Below are positions 33,149 to 39,734 of a stretch of 64,000 nucleotides of DNA, piece by piece (position 1 is the stretch's first letter; each line of letters starts with the position of its first letter). Origin of the DNA: Plesiomonas shigelloides (GTDB lineage Bacteria; Pseudomonadota; Gammaproteobacteria; Enterobacterales; CAMTGL01); assembly GCF_900087055.1 (NCBI RefSeq), contig NZ_LT575468.1:1922001-1986000 (forward strand), given 5' to 3'. The notes beneath the pieces were generated by a model. It was not told the DNA's origin, ran no database searches, and was given only the letters and a program-made list of their open reading frames with translations. Made by a program: the position numbers and the translations under genes.

Positions 33149-33685
33149 TTACTGCCAAATTTCAGGCTGAATTTCTGCGTTATGTACTGCATCCGACAAC
33201 CAAACTAGGCCATCTTGCAATGTGGCTTGCAGGTTCATAGTGCGGTTAACCAATTGGGTTAAACGGCTGACTTGCTCATCGGAAATGAAAAAGACGCGTA
33301 CATTAGAATATTGACGGATTTTATTGCTGTTTTGCTCCCACCACACTTTGGCAGCGCGATCACCGTATGCGTATAGCACCACCTGCTCAGATTGATGCGA
33401 GGCTTTTTTCAACCGCTTTTCATCCGGCACGCCGACGTCAATCCACAGGTCGATTCCATCATGATAGTTTTTGAGCCAAATTTCCGGTTCATCATCGGCG
33501 CACAAACCTTTGGTGAACACCAAACGCTCATTGGCATGACGAACCCATGCCAGTAGACGAACCATCATGCGTTGTTCGGTTTCGGAAGGATGTTGTGCCA
33601 GCACCAAATCGGCACTCTGATAATAATGCCGATCCATATCAGCGATATTGATGTTTGCTTTATAGACTGTTGCTTTAAGTGCCAT
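33149..33685 (-). CDS. yaeQ: YaeQ family protein
   Basis: A 178-residue member of the YaeQ family (PD-(D/E)xK-like fold, function unsettled). The start at 33685 (MALKATVYKANINIADMDRHYY) has GGAAG at seven bases; an ATG at 33712 lacks one. Conserved blocks are LVLAQHPSETEQRMMVRLLAW, DEPEIWLKNYHDGIDLWIDVG and VVLYAYGDRAAKVWWEQN. The length fits E. coli YaeQ. It marks the last clearly chromosomal gene before the accessory region. Confidence 0.93.
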   Translation of the reverse strand: MALKATVYKANINIADMDRHYYQSADLVLAQHPSETEQRMMVRLLAWVRHANERLVFTKGLCADDEPEIWLKNYHDGIDLWIDVGVPDEKRLKKASHQSEQVVLYAYGDRAAKVWWEQNSNKIRQYSNVRVFFISDEQVSRLTQLVNRTMNLQATLQDGLVWLSDAVHNAEIQPEIWQ

Positions 33686-34216
33686 AAACGACTTCCGAAA
33701 TCTCACATACATACAGCATAACAGAGAAATGAGACATTTAAAATCAAATAGTTACTAAGATTTGGCTCAAAAAACGAGCCGCAAAAATAGAAAAAACACA
33801 TTTCACAGCTCACTATTTTTCAATGAGTTAAGTTGAATAGTGATGCGCTCCAAACACATTTAGCTCCATAATTCCCCTCATCCACAGGATAGTGAAACAT
33901 GACATATATCTCACTATTCACACCTTTGATTAGCAAATACTAGACAGTCAATCTGCAGCCTTCATATCATTTCATGCCTGAAAGACGAAACATCATCTTA
34001 TATCTTAGTTATCATATTGTTTTTATTTTAAAAATAACTAATGAATTTCCATTAGCGCAAGCAGTTGGGCGACAGGTAGTGGTCATGGCAAACATCGTCT
34101 GGCAACAAGTAGCCACTCAAAGCCTAGTCGAGGGCGAAGATACTTAAAAAGGTTTGGAGGTCCCCTCTTTATTGATGGCACCATTCAATCGATCGTTACT
34201 TAATTTGGATTAAAGA
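33686..34216. other. Intergenic stretch at the edge of the accessory region
   Basis: About 530 AT-rich bases with no convincing gene. A hairpin GGCTC-N7-GAGCC lies near 33763-33780. A stopless frame about 34037-34147 ending in NIVWQQVATQSLVEGEDT could be a gene remnant, but it has no proper start. No tRNA or attachment-like repeat was found. Confidence 0.4.
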
Positions 34217-35530
34217 ATGACTGCGGAAATAGCTATTTACAACAAATCTTCGGTTGCACTGGCGGCGGATTCGGCCGTGACGATACAAGGCGGTAGCACT
34301 TACAAGATCTACAACGGAGCAGAAAAGCTATTTGCACTATCGAAAGCACATCCAGTGGGTGTAATGGTGTACGGTTCAGGTTCGTTATGTGGAGTCCCTT
34401 GGGAATTGATCATTAAACAGTTCAGGAAAAAGCATGGCTCAACCCAAAGAGACACATTGGAACAATACGCGCAAGCATTCTGGGCTTTTCTTGTAGCAGA
34501 ACAGCATCTAATCCCTCCAGAGATGAAGGAGAATAGCTTATGCCATTTCTACGAGCAGGTTTTTCGCAATGAAATTTTTTCCAAAATTGAGGACCTCGCA
34601 TTTGGCTTTATTCAGTCAAACCAAAGACATCCAACCATTGAAGAAACGTATAATCTCCTCAGAGAGCATTGCGTAGATCTGACAAACATGCTTCGCAACG
34701 TTGAGTTTTACGAGAACCTTACAGAGCAAGACTTACAAGATGCACTTCCATTTGCATCAGAGGTTGCCTCACACTTATGTGAGAAAAACCTCCCTTCAGA
34801 GGAGTCTCAAATACCAGAAGCATTGATAAATGCTGTTGCATCAGTGTTCGTCAATGCTTCGTGTAAAAAAATCGAGATTGGTGCAAATACAGGAATAGTT
34901 TTTGCTGGTTTCGGAGATCAAGAGTATTTTCCTGTAGTTTTAGCCTTCAATTTGCTAGGGTTTATTAATGGTAAACTAAGGCTTTCTCCTAACTCTAAGA
35001 AAAGTGCGCCTGCCGGCGCAAGTGGGCTTATAGCCTATGCTCAGGAGGAAGAAGTTGATAGCTTTGTGTCTGGCATCAGCAAAAACATCAAAAACAAGGT
35101 TATCATTGATAGTAAACTGCTGCTGCAGAATGTTCTTGACAGAGCTTCTGAGAACGTAGAAAAGTTGGACATCGATGAGCAATCCAAGCAAGCATTTAAG
35201 GGTGAACTTATTGACACTGCCACACAAATGTACGATCAATTCAATCAAAATCTTCAAAAACACATCCAAACCTGCTATATAGATAAGGTAGTCGATATGG
35301 TTGCATTCTTGCCTAAGCAGGACTTGGCGGAGATGGCAGAGTCTCTGGTTAATCTAACGGCCTTTAAGCGAAAGGTCTCTAATGATAGTGAGACTGTAGG
35401 TGGGCCTGTCGACGTAGCGATTATCTCCAAAGGAGACGGTTTCATCTGGGTTAAACGCAAGCACTACTTTAAAAAAGATTTGAACCAACACTACTTTGAC
35501 AATCAGGCGAATGGAGCGTACCAATCATGA
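34217..35530 (+). CDS. Proteasome/HslV-like Ntn-hydrolase candidate
   Basis: A 437-residue protein I do not recognise as a named family. The N-terminus MTAEIAIYNKSSVALAADSA lines up with HslV and proteasome beta subunits: removal of Met would expose Thr1, Asp falls at mature position 17, and a Lys at mature position 36 (AEKLFAL) lies three residues from the usual Lys33. VGVMVYGSGS then matches the IAGFAG strand. IVFAGFGDQEYFP later resembles the second core strand. The protein is twice the length of HslV, with a long helical insert. The stop overlaps a 55-residue gene (ATGA). Catalysis is predicted, not shown. The AT-rich sequence differs from flanking genes and suggests transfer. Confidence 0.75.
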   Translation: MTAEIAIYNKSSVALAADSAVTIQGGSTYKIYNGAEKLFALSKAHPVGVMVYGSGSLCGVPWELIIKQFRKKHGSTQRDTLEQYAQAFWAFLVAEQHLIPPEMKENSLCHFYEQVFRNEIFSKIEDLAFGFIQSNQRHPTIEETYNLLREHCVDLTNMLRNVEFYENLTEQDLQDALPFASEVASHLCEKNLPSEESQIPEALINAVASVFVNASCKKIEIGANTGIVFAGFGDQEYFPVVLAFNLLGFINGKLRLSPNSKKSAPAGASGLIAYAQEEEVDSFVSGISKNIKNKVIIDSKLLLQNVLDRASENVEKLDIDEQSKQAFKGELIDTATQMYDQFNQNLQKHIQTCYIDKVVDMVAFLPKQDLAEMAESLVNLTAFKRKVSNDSETVGGPVDVAIISKGDGFIWVKRKHYFKKDLNQHYFDNQANGAYQS

Positions 35531-35694
35531 CTCAAAAGCATCTTCACGAAAAAATGGAATTGCGTGAGTGGCGTCGTCTCTTCAATCCGCAGAAGCTAAA
35601 CGAGGAAACCAGCCACAACGGTAGTATCGCTCAGAAAGCAAAGGCGCTGACCGAAAGAAATAATAAAAAAGAGCCTATGTTCTCTCTGGCATAA
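35527..35694 (+). CDS. 55-residue basic protein coupled to the Ntn-hydrolase-like gene
   Basis: An ATGA overlap with the preceding stop opens a 55-codon frame (MTQKHLHEKMELREWRRLF...). The product is lysine and arginine rich, with an N-terminal predicted helix and a low-complexity C-terminus ending EPMFSLA. No domain is recognised. Coupling and a shared terminator suggest a two-gene functional unit, with this as substrate, adaptor, inhibitor or partner. Its last 20 bases are duplicated in tandem just after the stop. Confidence 0.72.
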   Translation: MTQKHLHEKMELREWRRLFNPQKLNEETSHNGSIAQKAKALTERNNKKEPMFSLA

Positions 35695-35714
35695 CTATGT
35701 TCTCTCTGGCATAA
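35675..35714. repeat. Perfect 20-bp tandem duplication at the gene end
   Basis: CTATGTTCTCTCTGGCATAA occurs twice in direct succession. The first copy is the final codons and stop of the 55-residue gene, the second runs into the terminator. Confidence 0.97.
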
Positions 35715-35740
35715 AAAGACCCGCTATGGCGGGTCTTTTA
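35714..35740 (+). terminator. Terminator of the two-gene unit
   Basis: AAAAGACCCGC/GCGGGTCTTTT with a four-base loop ends the Ntn-hydrolase-like operon. Confidence 0.9.
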
Positions 35741-35748
35741 CACTCGTA

Positions 35749-36016
35749 AACTCAAACTGCTCTGGTGTTGCTTGATGGGATTCAAGTCTACGTAGGCCTA
35801 TAGGCTAGTACAGCAGCGCCATCCCCATCCAATAGAGCTTGGGATTTAAACCGCCTTCCCAGAAACAGCCTTTACAGCCATCTTCTTTGTTTGCCAGTCT
35901 GGCAATGGACTCGTTCAAAGCTCGCATAAACTAAAACGCCCACCGCACCCAGCGGATGATATAGCGGTAAAACGGCGTATCATCCAGACTTACCTCGTAT
36001 ACTTTGGCCTTGGCAT
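35749..36016 (-). pseudogene. Decayed REP-associated tyrosine transposase (RAYT) remnant
   Basis: Minus-strand translation in shifting frames gives three short blocks typical of RAYT (Y1, TnpA-REP) transposases: KVYEVSLDDTPFYRYIIRWV near the start, ESIARLANKEDGCKGCFWEG in the middle, and AYVDLNPI at the end. Stops and frame changes separate them, and the central catalytic region is missing, so only the N-terminal and C-proximal parts remain. An apparent single-base loss follows the start codon. It indicates an old insertion in this accessory segment. Confidence 0.72.
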
Positions 36017-36200: not shown

Positions 36201-39200
36201 TTACCGGTCTTTGTGATTATTAATTACTCGTTCAGCTTCGCGGTCATAGCCGTCCGCCAAACATCTCAAAGTAACTGCAAATCGCTGAAATCCGGCGTTC
36301 TCTATTTCCTCGGCTTTATTCCGGAACTGCTCGGCCAGTTCTCTCTCCGGCTTTCCGGTTGGGTCAACCCAATGAACACCGCGTGAGTTGTATGTCCCCG
36401 TCCTGAAACCGGCGCGCATGTCATCAGCGTCACGATCATTCAATGCGGCAGCGACAGCGCGACGTATCCATAAGCCGTCTGGATCAGGCGGGGTGTGAAT
36501 CAATACTTCGCCAATATTGATGAGTGCAACTTGCAGGTGGCCGGACTCCGTGCAGACTTCTTTAACCCTTTGGAGCCATCCGATGAAGCACTCTTCACTG
36601 AAAGTACCATCTTTTTGTGTTCCCGGTGGTGTCTTCCACTCATGCAGCAGTCGCCAAGCATTTGTTGCGATTACCTTTGATCCCTCAGTGGGTTCGCTCG
36701 ACGGCTGATCTTCTTTCTTGGAACGGTAGATCAGTCGAATTACCTCACAATAGAATTCGGGTTCATTGGCCAGCTTACTTTCAAGGAGTTGGGGCGCGGC
36801 ATCTCTATGACGATCGAGCAAGGGAACATATGCCCACTCGACTCTAAAGAGGTCGTCCTGGTTAACCGAAGGCTCTGCCTGAAGAAACTTGATCAGTTCG
36901 ACTATGTGGTACCCGTCCATAGCGTTGCTGGGCTCTCTGGAGGAAAGCGCTGCGAGCAACGCGCGAACACATTGATTACTATCGATTGGCTGATTGGCAT
37001 GGCGCATCCTGTCCAGGCAATTGATTGCCGCGTACGGTCTTCCATGTTCAATAAGTTTCTCAATAGCAATGGCAAGATCTCCATCGGTCTCATAGGCATT
37101 CGCGCCGCTGCGTGCCCAGTATTCACTCTCGTACGCCTGAAGCCATTTAGAAGCGCGATCCCATGCTCCCTTCGTAAATGGCAAATAAGCTAGGAATTGT
37201 CCTACTTGCTCTGGCGTCCAATCAGATTTATCGATGTCGTCGCACCACTCCCAACTTTTGGCGTGGTAGCGCCGCCAGATAAAACCTCTCACCAATGCCT
37301 TACGCTTGTTGTCCGCTGATTCAAGGAAGTGAGGCAAAAAAGTCCGATCAATAATTGAATCGTCAATAACACCAAGTGCATTCCCCACCTGACCGGGTGA
37401 AGAAGTGGACTCAGCGAATCGGATTACACCCTCGGCACCATATTGCTGAAAGATCTCCGAAATAGCTCTCTCACGTCGCCTGTCAAGTTTCTTTCGCTGC
37501 CCTTCCCAATCGCCGTTCTCTTCGTATAGGTCAAAATCACGATCTGTAAAGAGGTGCTGATATAAATTGAATGGGTTGGTGGGCGCGAGTTGCTCTGCAA
37601 CCTTTTCAATGCGGGTAATCAGTTCGTCGGGTAATGCCCATTTCGCGTCGAAGAACCGCCGGTGTTTGCTTGTAAATCTCGTAAGATGGTCCCAAATCGA
37701 AAGTCGTTGATCTTCAGGAAGTTCTGAAATGGTCTGCGAGGAGAGAATTTGAAGAAGTTGATCAAAAGCGGATGTAGGCAGGTTATCAAAATGGTCAATC
37801 AATGCTGAGAGCCGAGCGGTATCTTGGCCTGCAGCAGCCACCGCAAGTTCCGCGTAAGAAGATGCCTGCTGCCAGTATTCCTGATGCGTAACGCCTTTTT
37901 CCCAATCATCAGGGATTGTCTTGCGCCAACTTGGCTTGTGCGAACCGGAAGATGTCTGGTTCTGGCCGGGAAGAAGCTGAAAGATCAGATTCCAGGCGAT
38001 ATCAGGCCATTCATTAAGGATCGTCCGTACTGCTACCTTACGCTTTTCTACAGATGCCAGTGTTTGCGGTAGCCAAGGCAGCAAAATGGTTGTAAGCGAA
38101 TTGGAGGGGCGATTGGCCCAATGGCCGCCGGGGTCATGGCTAGCGAGTTCACCAAGCGCGACACAGACACGAACCAGATATTGTTCATCCCAAGCCAACC
38201 CTTCCAACGCCCAAAGCAGGCCGGTTAAATAATTGCTGCCGGTGATGCCGTTGCCTTCTTGGGAAAAAAGCTCATCAAAGGGGCAGGGCTTCAGGCGCAT
38301 CGCCTTCTCGACCGCATCAAGAAATTCACTCGGAGCAGCTTCGGCCAAGGTTGGCAGTACACCGCTCAGGCTGCCCCACAAGACCCAGTCAGCATCAGTC
38401 AGCAGTTCACGTATCACCAATGCGCAGTTTGCTTCAGCCTTCCCTAGCGAACAGTTGGCGCACGCCTCCGGCTGGCTGCCCAAGATAGCCAAACCCTCGG
38501 CAATGCCGTTTCGCAGCACGTGTGAACAATTCAGCACCTTGCCATGAATACTTGCCGCATATCGATCTTCGGCTGGCAGTTCAAAAGCAGGGTCAGGTTC
38601 CTTTAGTACGGAAACAGCCAGCGACCTAAACTTATCGAGGTTCTGATCAAGGATGCGCGATCCCAGCACCATCCAAAGCTCGGTTCGGTTAACAATTTTC
38701 CAAGTGCCGTTTTTGAGCGACAGCGGACTATCGGGTCTGTGCAATATTTCCTGGGCCTTCTTTAGCCACTCATCGTAACTGATACCGAACAGTTGAGTTA
38801 TCGCTTCAAGGTCGCCTTGACTCTTGTCTTGCCAAGAGCCAATCAAAACAGCCAAGGCCAGATAGGTGGCTTCTGGGTGCTGAGTCCAATCGGTTTTATG
38901 TTTCTCCTGTACCGCCTTGAACTCCTCAGGCATCTCCGCCAAAACCTTTGGTTTAAAGACCTCTCGAAGGTCATCCGGAAGCTTATCAGGCGTGATGGTG
39001 CCTGCATCCTGATTCCATGTTTGTACGATATCGACAACCCGTGACCAGACCCACTGCGGATACTGCTGCTGGAATTGGGAGATGTGAGAATGCAGCAGAG
39101 ACAGGACAACACCGAACTCGTTACCAAGATCGTAGCCTAGTAAATGGAAGTGATTCAGGAAATCATAGAGTTCAGCCCTTGAAACAAGGTTACCGCCGTT

Positions 39201-39734
39201 TGCTTTATTCAGATGCAACTGAAAGACATCCAGCTTTTCGATACTCTTGGAAGGGCTGAAATTCGACTGCTGAACGTTTCTGAAAAACTCATCCGCGTTT
39301 TTAGTATGCCTCGCCTGATTCAGAAGCCATTGTACATTGTGTGCATCAGTCGCGCTAAGTGGCCCAGTGATCAGCGCAATAATATCCTTACCTCGAGTAA
39401 ACACCTTGGAATTATTGAAATCATTCCAGGCAGCCTGCATCACTTCCCCAAACAGGGCGCTGCCCTGCGTGATGGCAATGGAATGTTTAACCTGCCCGAG
39501 AAGTTTCCGCCGCTCCTTGCTGTTCACGTCTTCCACGACAACAATGAGGTCGTCTGTATCAAAGCCATCAATCTTGCCCTGAAGTTTGATTTCCGCAATA
39601 GGCCAGCAGGGAAGACAGGGAGCGTGACCGCCGGTAAGCATCAGCGCGACAAATGACGCTTGGATATGCGCTTCAAAATGAGAACCGCCACCACCGGTAG
39701 AGAATGAATTGCTTAGTTTTTTCTGTTTCGCCAT
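36201..39734 (-). CDS. Large candidate defence protein: Cap4/Mrr-like nuclease domain with helical C-terminus
   Basis: A 1,177-residue protein. Residues about 10-200 resemble a restriction-type nuclease of the Cap4/DUF4297 kind: TGGGGSHFEAHIQASFVALML, then an acidic cluster DDLIVVVED and GQVKHSIAITQGSALFGE (D...E-x-K-like, with Gln-x-Lys). A winged-helix-like segment follows (LVSRAELYDFLNHFHLLGYD). The remaining 900 residues look like helical repeats, with conserved-looking ends such as FRTGTYNSRGVHWVDPTGKPERELAE seen in large Avs-like defence proteins. I find no Walker A motif, so unlike those proteins it seems to lack a STAND ATPase. GAGAG lies upstream of the ATG. Position right behind the phage late operon suggests cargo. 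Confidence 0.72.
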   Translation of the reverse strand: MAKQKKLSNSFSTGGGGSHFEAHIQASFVALMLTGGHAPCLPCWPIAEIKLQGKIDGFDTDDLIVVVEDVNSKERRKLLGQVKHSIAITQGSALFGEVMQAAWNDFNNSKVFTRGKDIIALITGPLSATDAHNVQWLLNQARHTKNADEFFRNVQQSNFSPSKSIEKLDVFQLHLNKANGGNLVSRAELYDFLNHFHLLGYDLGNEFGVVLSLLHSHISQFQQQYPQWVWSRVVDIVQTWNQDAGTITPDKLPDDLREVFKPKVLAEMPEEFKAVQEKHKTDWTQHPEATYLALAVLIGSWQDKSQGDLEAITQLFGISYDEWLKKAQEILHRPDSPLSLKNGTWKIVNRTELWMVLGSRILDQNLDKFRSLAVSVLKEPDPAFELPAEDRYAASIHGKVLNCSHVLRNGIAEGLAILGSQPEACANCSLGKAEANCALVIRELLTDADWVLWGSLSGVLPTLAEAAPSEFLDAVEKAMRLKPCPFDELFSQEGNGITGSNYLTGLLWALEGLAWDEQYLVRVCVALGELASHDPGGHWANRPSNSLTTILLPWLPQTLASVEKRKVAVRTILNEWPDIAWNLIFQLLPGQNQTSSGSHKPSWRKTIPDDWEKGVTHQEYWQQASSYAELAVAAAGQDTARLSALIDHFDNLPTSAFDQLLQILSSQTISELPEDQRLSIWDHLTRFTSKHRRFFDAKWALPDELITRIEKVAEQLAPTNPFNLYQHLFTDRDFDLYEENGDWEGQRKKLDRRRERAISEIFQQYGAEGVIRFAESTSSPGQVGNALGVIDDSIIDRTFLPHFLESADNKRKALVRGFIWRRYHAKSWEWCDDIDKSDWTPEQVGQFLAYLPFTKGAWDRASKWLQAYESEYWARSGANAYETDGDLAIAIEKLIEHGRPYAAINCLDRMRHANQPIDSNQCVRALLAALSSREPSNAMDGYHIVELIKFLQAEPSVNQDDLFRVEWAYVPLLDRHRDAAPQLLESKLANEPEFYCEVIRLIYRSKKEDQPSSEPTEGSKVIATNAWRLLHEWKTPPGTQKDGTFSEECFIGWLQRVKEVCTESGHLQVALINIGEVLIHTPPDPDGLWIRRAVAAALNDRDADDMRAGFRTGTYNSRGVHWVDPTGKPERELAEQFRNKAEEIENAGFQRFAVTLRCLADGYDREAERVINNHKDR

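Follow-up and report, generated by a model that had tools for sequence, protein, structure and literature searches.

The locus studied here lies in a 64 000-nucleotide stretch of Plesiomonas shigelloides DNA (the window) and raises the question of what a proteasome-like enzyme beside prophage genes does, and whether the tiny gene attached to its end belongs to that function. The original prediction had read the locus as a two-gene unit joined by an ATGA overlap, and ORF calling on the window gave exactly this arrangement, an ORF of 437 codons followed by one of 55 codons, both with ATG starts and the second preceded by a GGAG word (Table 1). A terminator had been proposed to close the pair; a strong hairpin was found there (−20.3 kcal/mol for the 56-nt stretch), with only four T in its tail and absent from the output of the T-tract scan. 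A 19-bp tandem duplication (35676–35694 and 35696–35714) covers the small gene's stop codon and extends into this hairpin. The pair is flanked by yaeQ (33149–33712, Pfam YaeQ) and by a gene of 1177 residues (36201–39734, minus strand), beyond which the minus strand encodes prophage functions: tail, tape-measure, sheath, head, portal and terminase. The far end of the prophage lies outside the window, where an integrase-like ORF and then what look like host genes were seen; no attachment repeat longer than 10 bp was found between the two ends. The 1177-residue gene had been called a likely defence gene, a label that the searches did not support: its sole family match was PHROG 18693 (residues 287–1169), a phage family without assigned function, and it gave no real PADLOC match and, by tblastn against phage records, no match. 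Its N-terminus may resemble nuclease-type defence proteins. A decayed transposase had been placed beside the pair as well, for which there was slight support: parts of Pseudoalteromonas plasmids resemble the DNA at 35775–35935 (E 1e-14), as does, to a lesser degree, an annotated Saccharobesus transposase (E 7e-5), which is consistent with such a remnant.

Table 1. Features of the hydrolase–microprotein locus, in window coordinates
Feature	Coordinates	Strand	Remarks
Hydrolase gene	34217..35530	+	predicted proteasome-fold Ntn hydrolase, PMI-4-like; PHROG 5990
Thr2, presumed nucleophile after start-Met removal	34220..34222	+	aligned with proteasome residue 1
Asp18 (proteasome Asp17)	34268..34270	+	113/113
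Lys37, presumed equivalent of proteasome Lys33	34325..34327	+	113/113
Helical insertion 1, residues 101–216	34517..34864	+	four helices in model, after H1/H2
Helical insertion 2, residues 289–363	35081..35305	+	two long helices in model, between core H3 and H4
C-terminal segment W411–N423, WVKRKHYFKKDLN	35447..35485	+	WxxRKHYFxxxLN; W411, K415, Y417 113/113
Small partner gene	35527..35694	+	55 aa, net charge +4, ELREWRRLFNP motif, ATGA overlap
Terminator-like hairpin, 11 bp	35714..35739	+	fold z −5.94

Relatives were collected from E. coli genomes by DNA similarity (22 of 5426, the matched part being only 11–14% of the query), from species-representative genomes (485 stretches from 500 pattern matches, best 80 kept) and from viral contigs, where a single-sequence scan gave no match and an alignment scan gave 164 stretches (best 80 kept). 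The 175 proteins extracted (from the window, 14 annotated records and 160 loci; 151 distinct) were filtered for a length of 380–480 residues, Thr2 and a stop codon, which left 166; L065, L074, L080, L085, L089, L094, L112, L136 and L146 were dropped as cut or interrupted. Reduction at 85% identity gave 121 proteins, of which the 113 whose loci were eligible for structure prediction form the alignment used below (A2). The interrupted copies in genome and viral contigs (L085, L089, L094, L136, L146) reflect either assembly error or decay. In L211 (about position 1504) Ile stands in place of the start Met, directly before Thr-Ala-Glu-Ile, and may mark a rare start codon. Relatives were present in 13 phage or satellite records and 10 plasmids. 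Whole-genome profile searches matched 10 of 398 Pseudomonadota genomes; by class, the matches were 4 of 369 genomes in that of the window and 17 of 385 and 2 of 48 in two others, counts in which the Pseudomonadota were sampled, the samples overlap and partial and distant matches are included. Among the 59 nearest relatives the hydrolase was carried by the window's own genome only. In the hydrolase tree, supported groups mix phyla and the two domains, a pattern that horizontal spread would produce; contigs from binning can be misleading in such a tree.

The hydrolase matched PHROG 5990 (function unknown) over residues 1–430 with E 6.7e-145. No convincing Pfam or NCBIfam family was obtained, the Pfam proteasome family was not among the matches up to E 1, and phmmer against PDB sequences gave no match. 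An AlphaFold2 model of the hydrolase built on A2 reached pLDDT 93.0 and pTM 0.89. Its best Foldseek match in the PDB was yeast 20S beta (1ryp_K, E 4.5e-5; TM 0.51 by target, 0.26 by query). Foldseek's top chains were then re-compared with VIA-align, so that families missing from this list carry no weight; 20S beta aligned over 176 residues with Z 16.5 and rmsd 3.0, residue 2 of the model lying on Thr1, and Anbu chain 5nyw gave Z 16.1. Below E 0.001, the only match in a library of viral structures was to a phage 'proteasome beta type-2 subunit'. When the A2 profile was compared with the PDB, T. acidophilum proteasome beta was matched at positions 388–405 (E 0.023), ranked under helical rows. 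Cullins and other helical proteins at the top of that search matched over the insertions and were taken as coiled-coil noise. As the original prediction had anticipated, a proteasome-beta/Ntn-hydrolase fold is predicted with high confidence for the 437-residue protein, and the helical insert that it had proposed is seen in the model.

For the proteasome it is established that a free N-terminal Thr, with an Asp and a Lys, forms the standard Ntn centre. All three residues named in the original prediction are in place: Thr follows the start Met, and positions 17 and 36 of the mature protein are Asp and Lys, the latter presumed from the alignment to be the equivalent of proteasome Lys33. Their conservation, proposed as a check, was confirmed. 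The start codon directly precedes Thr in 173 of the 175 extracted proteins, the two exceptions, L074 and L080, being matches that start within the protein, at residues 7 and 30 respectively; this is the independent figure, Thr2 in 113/113 being dependent on its use in selection. Asp18 and Lys37 are invariant among the 113 aligned relatives, and so are D399, W411, K415, Y417 and R70.

The small frame is likewise conserved in most relatives, from archaea to phages. An ATG ORF of 34–80 codons starting within 30 nt of the hydrolase stop was found at 105 of the 115 evaluable non-redundant loci and at 76 of 669 control ORF ends, which came from plain ORF calls at the same loci and are not all genes; with a Shine-Dalgarno word added to the rule the counts were 81/115 and 28/669. 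At L021, L034, L095 and L158, allowing alternative start codons and a larger search distance still gave no small ORF, and candidates under the relaxed rule at L153 look like chance. A profile of 19 small ORFs from archaea and bacteria detected 26 further loci at E<0.005 and none of 733 control ORFs (best control, E 0.35); on iteration it covered 44 loci, the starting 19 among them, and no control. The motif [EDKRQ][FWYVLI]xxx[FYL]xP, composed once the sequences were known, occurred at 55 of 113 loci and in 5 of 430 controls. In the branch of the window, ELREW(Q/R)xxFNP is common to close relatives; comparison of this branch with the large branch of small proteins placed EF/EW...FxP in register at an E of 0.14, which is not significant. 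The small proteins of Bacillota and Bacteroidota look different, so that a common origin of all small proteins is at most presumed. Searched by itself, the window copy gave no match in Pfam, NCBIfam or PHROG, nor in phage records by tblastn, and comparison of the small-protein profile with Pfam and the PDB gave nothing credible.

Estimates of dN/dS for the small gene lay between 0.06 and 0.28 in the 7 of 16 pairs with estimable dS (two further pairs with N in the sequence were excluded), which argues that it is under purifying selection. Its dN exceeded that of the enzyme in 15 of the 16 pairs, in one of them marginally. The more similar the enzymes, the more similar the small proteins (Spearman 0.42 over 105 loci; 0/999 permutations), also for pairs below 45% enzyme identity (Spearman 0.28, 0/999 permutations), and these correlations argue that the small gene is co-inherited with the enzyme. 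No natural fusion of hydrolase and microprotein was found among the 175 proteins. The small gene is easily overlooked: of 13 annotated records in which a small ORF could be detected, 8 list no gene at its position, and five of the 13 are plasmids with an incomplete gene table. Two loci that lack the usual small gene have mutually similar, convergent small ORFs downstream (L034, 9327–9485, minus strand; L153, 6858–7067, minus strand), which could be a replaced partner. At two others the small gene overlaps an extended hydrolase C-terminus, by 143 nt in L014 (6295–6504) and by 47 nt in L071 (9307–9513), and the two small proteins resemble each other.

The conserved C-terminal segment of the enzyme is a possible docking element for the small protein. 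Because the DNA patterns used for the genome and viral scans select for this C-terminal motif, the relatives found by profile search were used to compare the occurrence of segment and small gene. A small ORF was present in 5 of the 6 relatives with WxxRKx(Y/F)(F/Y) (L178, L179, L180, L182, L211) and in 0 of the 10 without the segment (Fisher p 0.0014). L210 was scored as lacking a small ORF, a 64-codon frame beginning just past the limit; 41-codon frames in L181 and L215 were set aside as chance, and the distant or partial L184–L188 as well as L217 and L220–L231 were excluded. The excluded L184 has a 90-codon ORF at −4. Over 132 rows, in which the earlier loci were scored as having the small gene save L021, L034, L095, L153 and L158, segment and small gene occurred together in 114, neither in 10, the segment only in 6 and the small gene only in 2 (L060 and L083, which have near variants of the segment). 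Eight of the 10 joint absences fall in one clade, and the supported branches gave three independent contrasts (one agreeing, none against, two ties); as a sequence association this is a lead, no proof. Since L021, L034, L095, L153, L158 and L210 keep the segment without a small ORF by the rule, the partner is not indispensable. In a read-through fusion model built on in-frame pairs of hydrolase and small protein, the enzyme part was well predicted and the small part had pLDDT 27–47 with one helix over the EW motif; no confident docking of the small part onto the enzyme was obtained.

The setting of the pair varies. It is flanked by antiterminator Q and holin in a Providencia phage and lies among structural genes in a Porphyromonas phage, at the end of Streptococcus satellites and in prophages of lambdoid and Rac-like appearance in E. 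coli. Clustered neighbour ORFs of the 121 loci contained no constant third gene (largest cluster, 12 loci); by our reading the recurring clusters look like prophage genes, integrases and regulators, and neither an alpha partner nor an AAA+ unfoldase was seen among them. Near cellular copies, the 128 nearest of 339 neighbour ORFs matched 151 PADLOC families, compared with 33 families for 126 ORFs picked at arbitrary sites in related genomes (128 chosen, the two longest omitted; all from the window's own order), both counts being inflated by redundant models. This is a hint that defence models are commoner near cellular copies of the hydrolase than at arbitrary sites. ThiF-type genes lie near the hydrolase at L014, L016, L049 and L071, at the first two annotated with an adjoining multiubiquitin-domain gene; they probably belong to shared islands and have no constant arrangement.

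We think these observations are best accounted for by a mobile two-gene module of a PMI-4-like hydrolase and a dedicated microprotein, a reading to which we give somewhat less than an even chance as a whole. Ordinary removal of the start Met would free Thr2, and the microprotein would be made by coupled translation. The helical insertions would prevent closure of a proteasome-type ring, and because they would hinder a closed ring the enzyme is likely a specific rather than a bulk hydrolase. The microprotein would bind the enzyme, probably via the WxxRKHYFxxxLN segment, and regulate it, most simply by keeping it in check until a trigger arrives. Phages, prophages and satellites would carry the pair as cargo that aids the carrier against competitors. 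The presence of a tiny gene next to the enzyme in archaea, bacteria and viruses suggests a joint function of the two proteins. The module is supported by the predicted fold and triad, by the near-constant small gene with its coding constraint and co-inheritance, and by the lack of a small gene in all 10 segment-less relatives. Further support comes from the wide occurrence in archaea and bacteria as well as in plasmids, satellites and phages, with varied positions in phages and no constant third gene, and from the larger number of defence models near cellular copies. Counted against it were the lack of docking in the fused model, the six segment-bearing relatives without a small ORF, the joint absences mostly within one clade, the differing branches of small proteins and the absence of a PADLOC model. 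A fuller version, an ancient and horizontally mobile two-component system of archaea, bacteria, phages and satellites, in which a microprotein docked on the C-terminal segment controls a non-ring hydrolase and the two act in phage–phage or host–phage conflict, is put forward tentatively.

The small protein might instead be the dedicated substrate of the enzyme, either simply cut or joined to a target after cleavage in the manner of connectase, which we consider unlikely though still worth weighing. It would then presumably parallel the recognition sequence of connectase. The short F-P motif of the small proteins would suit this role, and the very high conservation of enzyme residues beyond the triad (W411, K415, Y417, R70) would suit a specific partner; a cleavage site conserved across all branches of the small proteins was, however, not found. 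There is a precedent in connectase itself, a non-ring homolog with a helical insertion that is described as a specific ligase (PMC8665760). Slightly less probable is an activator, adaptor or assembly factor, acting like a propeptide in trans, for an enzyme of protein turnover or damaged-protein clearance. The family begins at Thr without a propeptide, and propeptides are described as aiding proteasome assembly (PMC8665760); the overlapping frames would moreover deliver both proteins together. Such housekeeping fits poorly with the patchy, mobile occurrence (as in the Pseudomonadota above) and with carriage by phages and satellites, and the faster change of the small protein, seen in its higher dN, would be unusual for an assembly factor. 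That the hydrolase alone matters, the small ORF being a passenger or no real gene, could be argued from its shortness and from the failed family searches with the window copy, and is made highly improbable by the profile matches, the dN/dS values, its presence at most loci, the F-P motif and the ELREW(Q/R)xxFNP shared by close relatives.

The small gene is the first candidate partner for this family of proteasome homologs, and a second gene that is near-constant, co-inherited and selected opens a direct test of the family's function. The pair would also extend the cargo of prophages and satellites by an enzyme of proteasome fold. The observation from which the work started is right, and more general than the window alone could show.

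Comparison with known systems places the enzyme as follows. It shares the fold, the N-terminal Thr and Asp17 with 20S proteasome beta and differs in being about twice as long and in its two helical insertions. HslV and Anbu belong to the same superfamily; unlike them, the present hydrolase has 437 residues with insertions and no Pfam proteasome match. Neither protein of the pair matched a PADLOC family (0 families), and a known anti-phage defence system was rejected for lack of such a model. Connectase, a monomeric, non-ring proteasome homolog with a helical insertion and a highly specific ligase, would be alike in these structural respects and in having a specific partner sequence; it is described as lacking H1/H2 and as having a two-helix insertion between S3 and S4, whereas the hydrolase model has H1/H2 and its insertions elsewhere (PMC8665760). 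Identity with connectase was rejected on the model, in which H62–73 and H81–94 are present and a loop of three residues joins E21–25 to E28–32 in place of the S3/S4 insertion. Fuchs, Alva and Lupas (2021) described 22 families of proteasome homologs, including PMI-4 ('Proteasome homolog with Multiple Insertions'), argued for their own models that insertions would hinder a closed ring, and reported the genomic context of the families as uninformative (PMC8665760). The original prediction had suggested that the pair could be an unrecognised protease or amidase system, with the small protein perhaps as its substrate, activator or inhibitor. 'Unrecognised' does not wholly hold for the enzyme, whose anatomy and distribution correspond to PMI-4; it may well apply to the small gene, since the partner and its near-constant coupling seem undescribed in the open-access literature and the passages of the paper on PMI-4 name no partner gene (PMC8665760). 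PMI-3 has the same two insertion sites as PMI-4 (PMC8665760). Common to PMI-4 as described and to the hydrolase here are a proteasome-like core, a Thr/Asp/Lys centre, the absence of a propeptide, a long insertion after H1/H2, a second one between H3 and H4, and a spread over bacterial phyla, Euryarchaeota and phages (PMC8665760). By size and breadth of distribution, and compared with this description rather than with the representative HDY66466.1, the hydrolase fits PMI-4, here with a small gene at its end.
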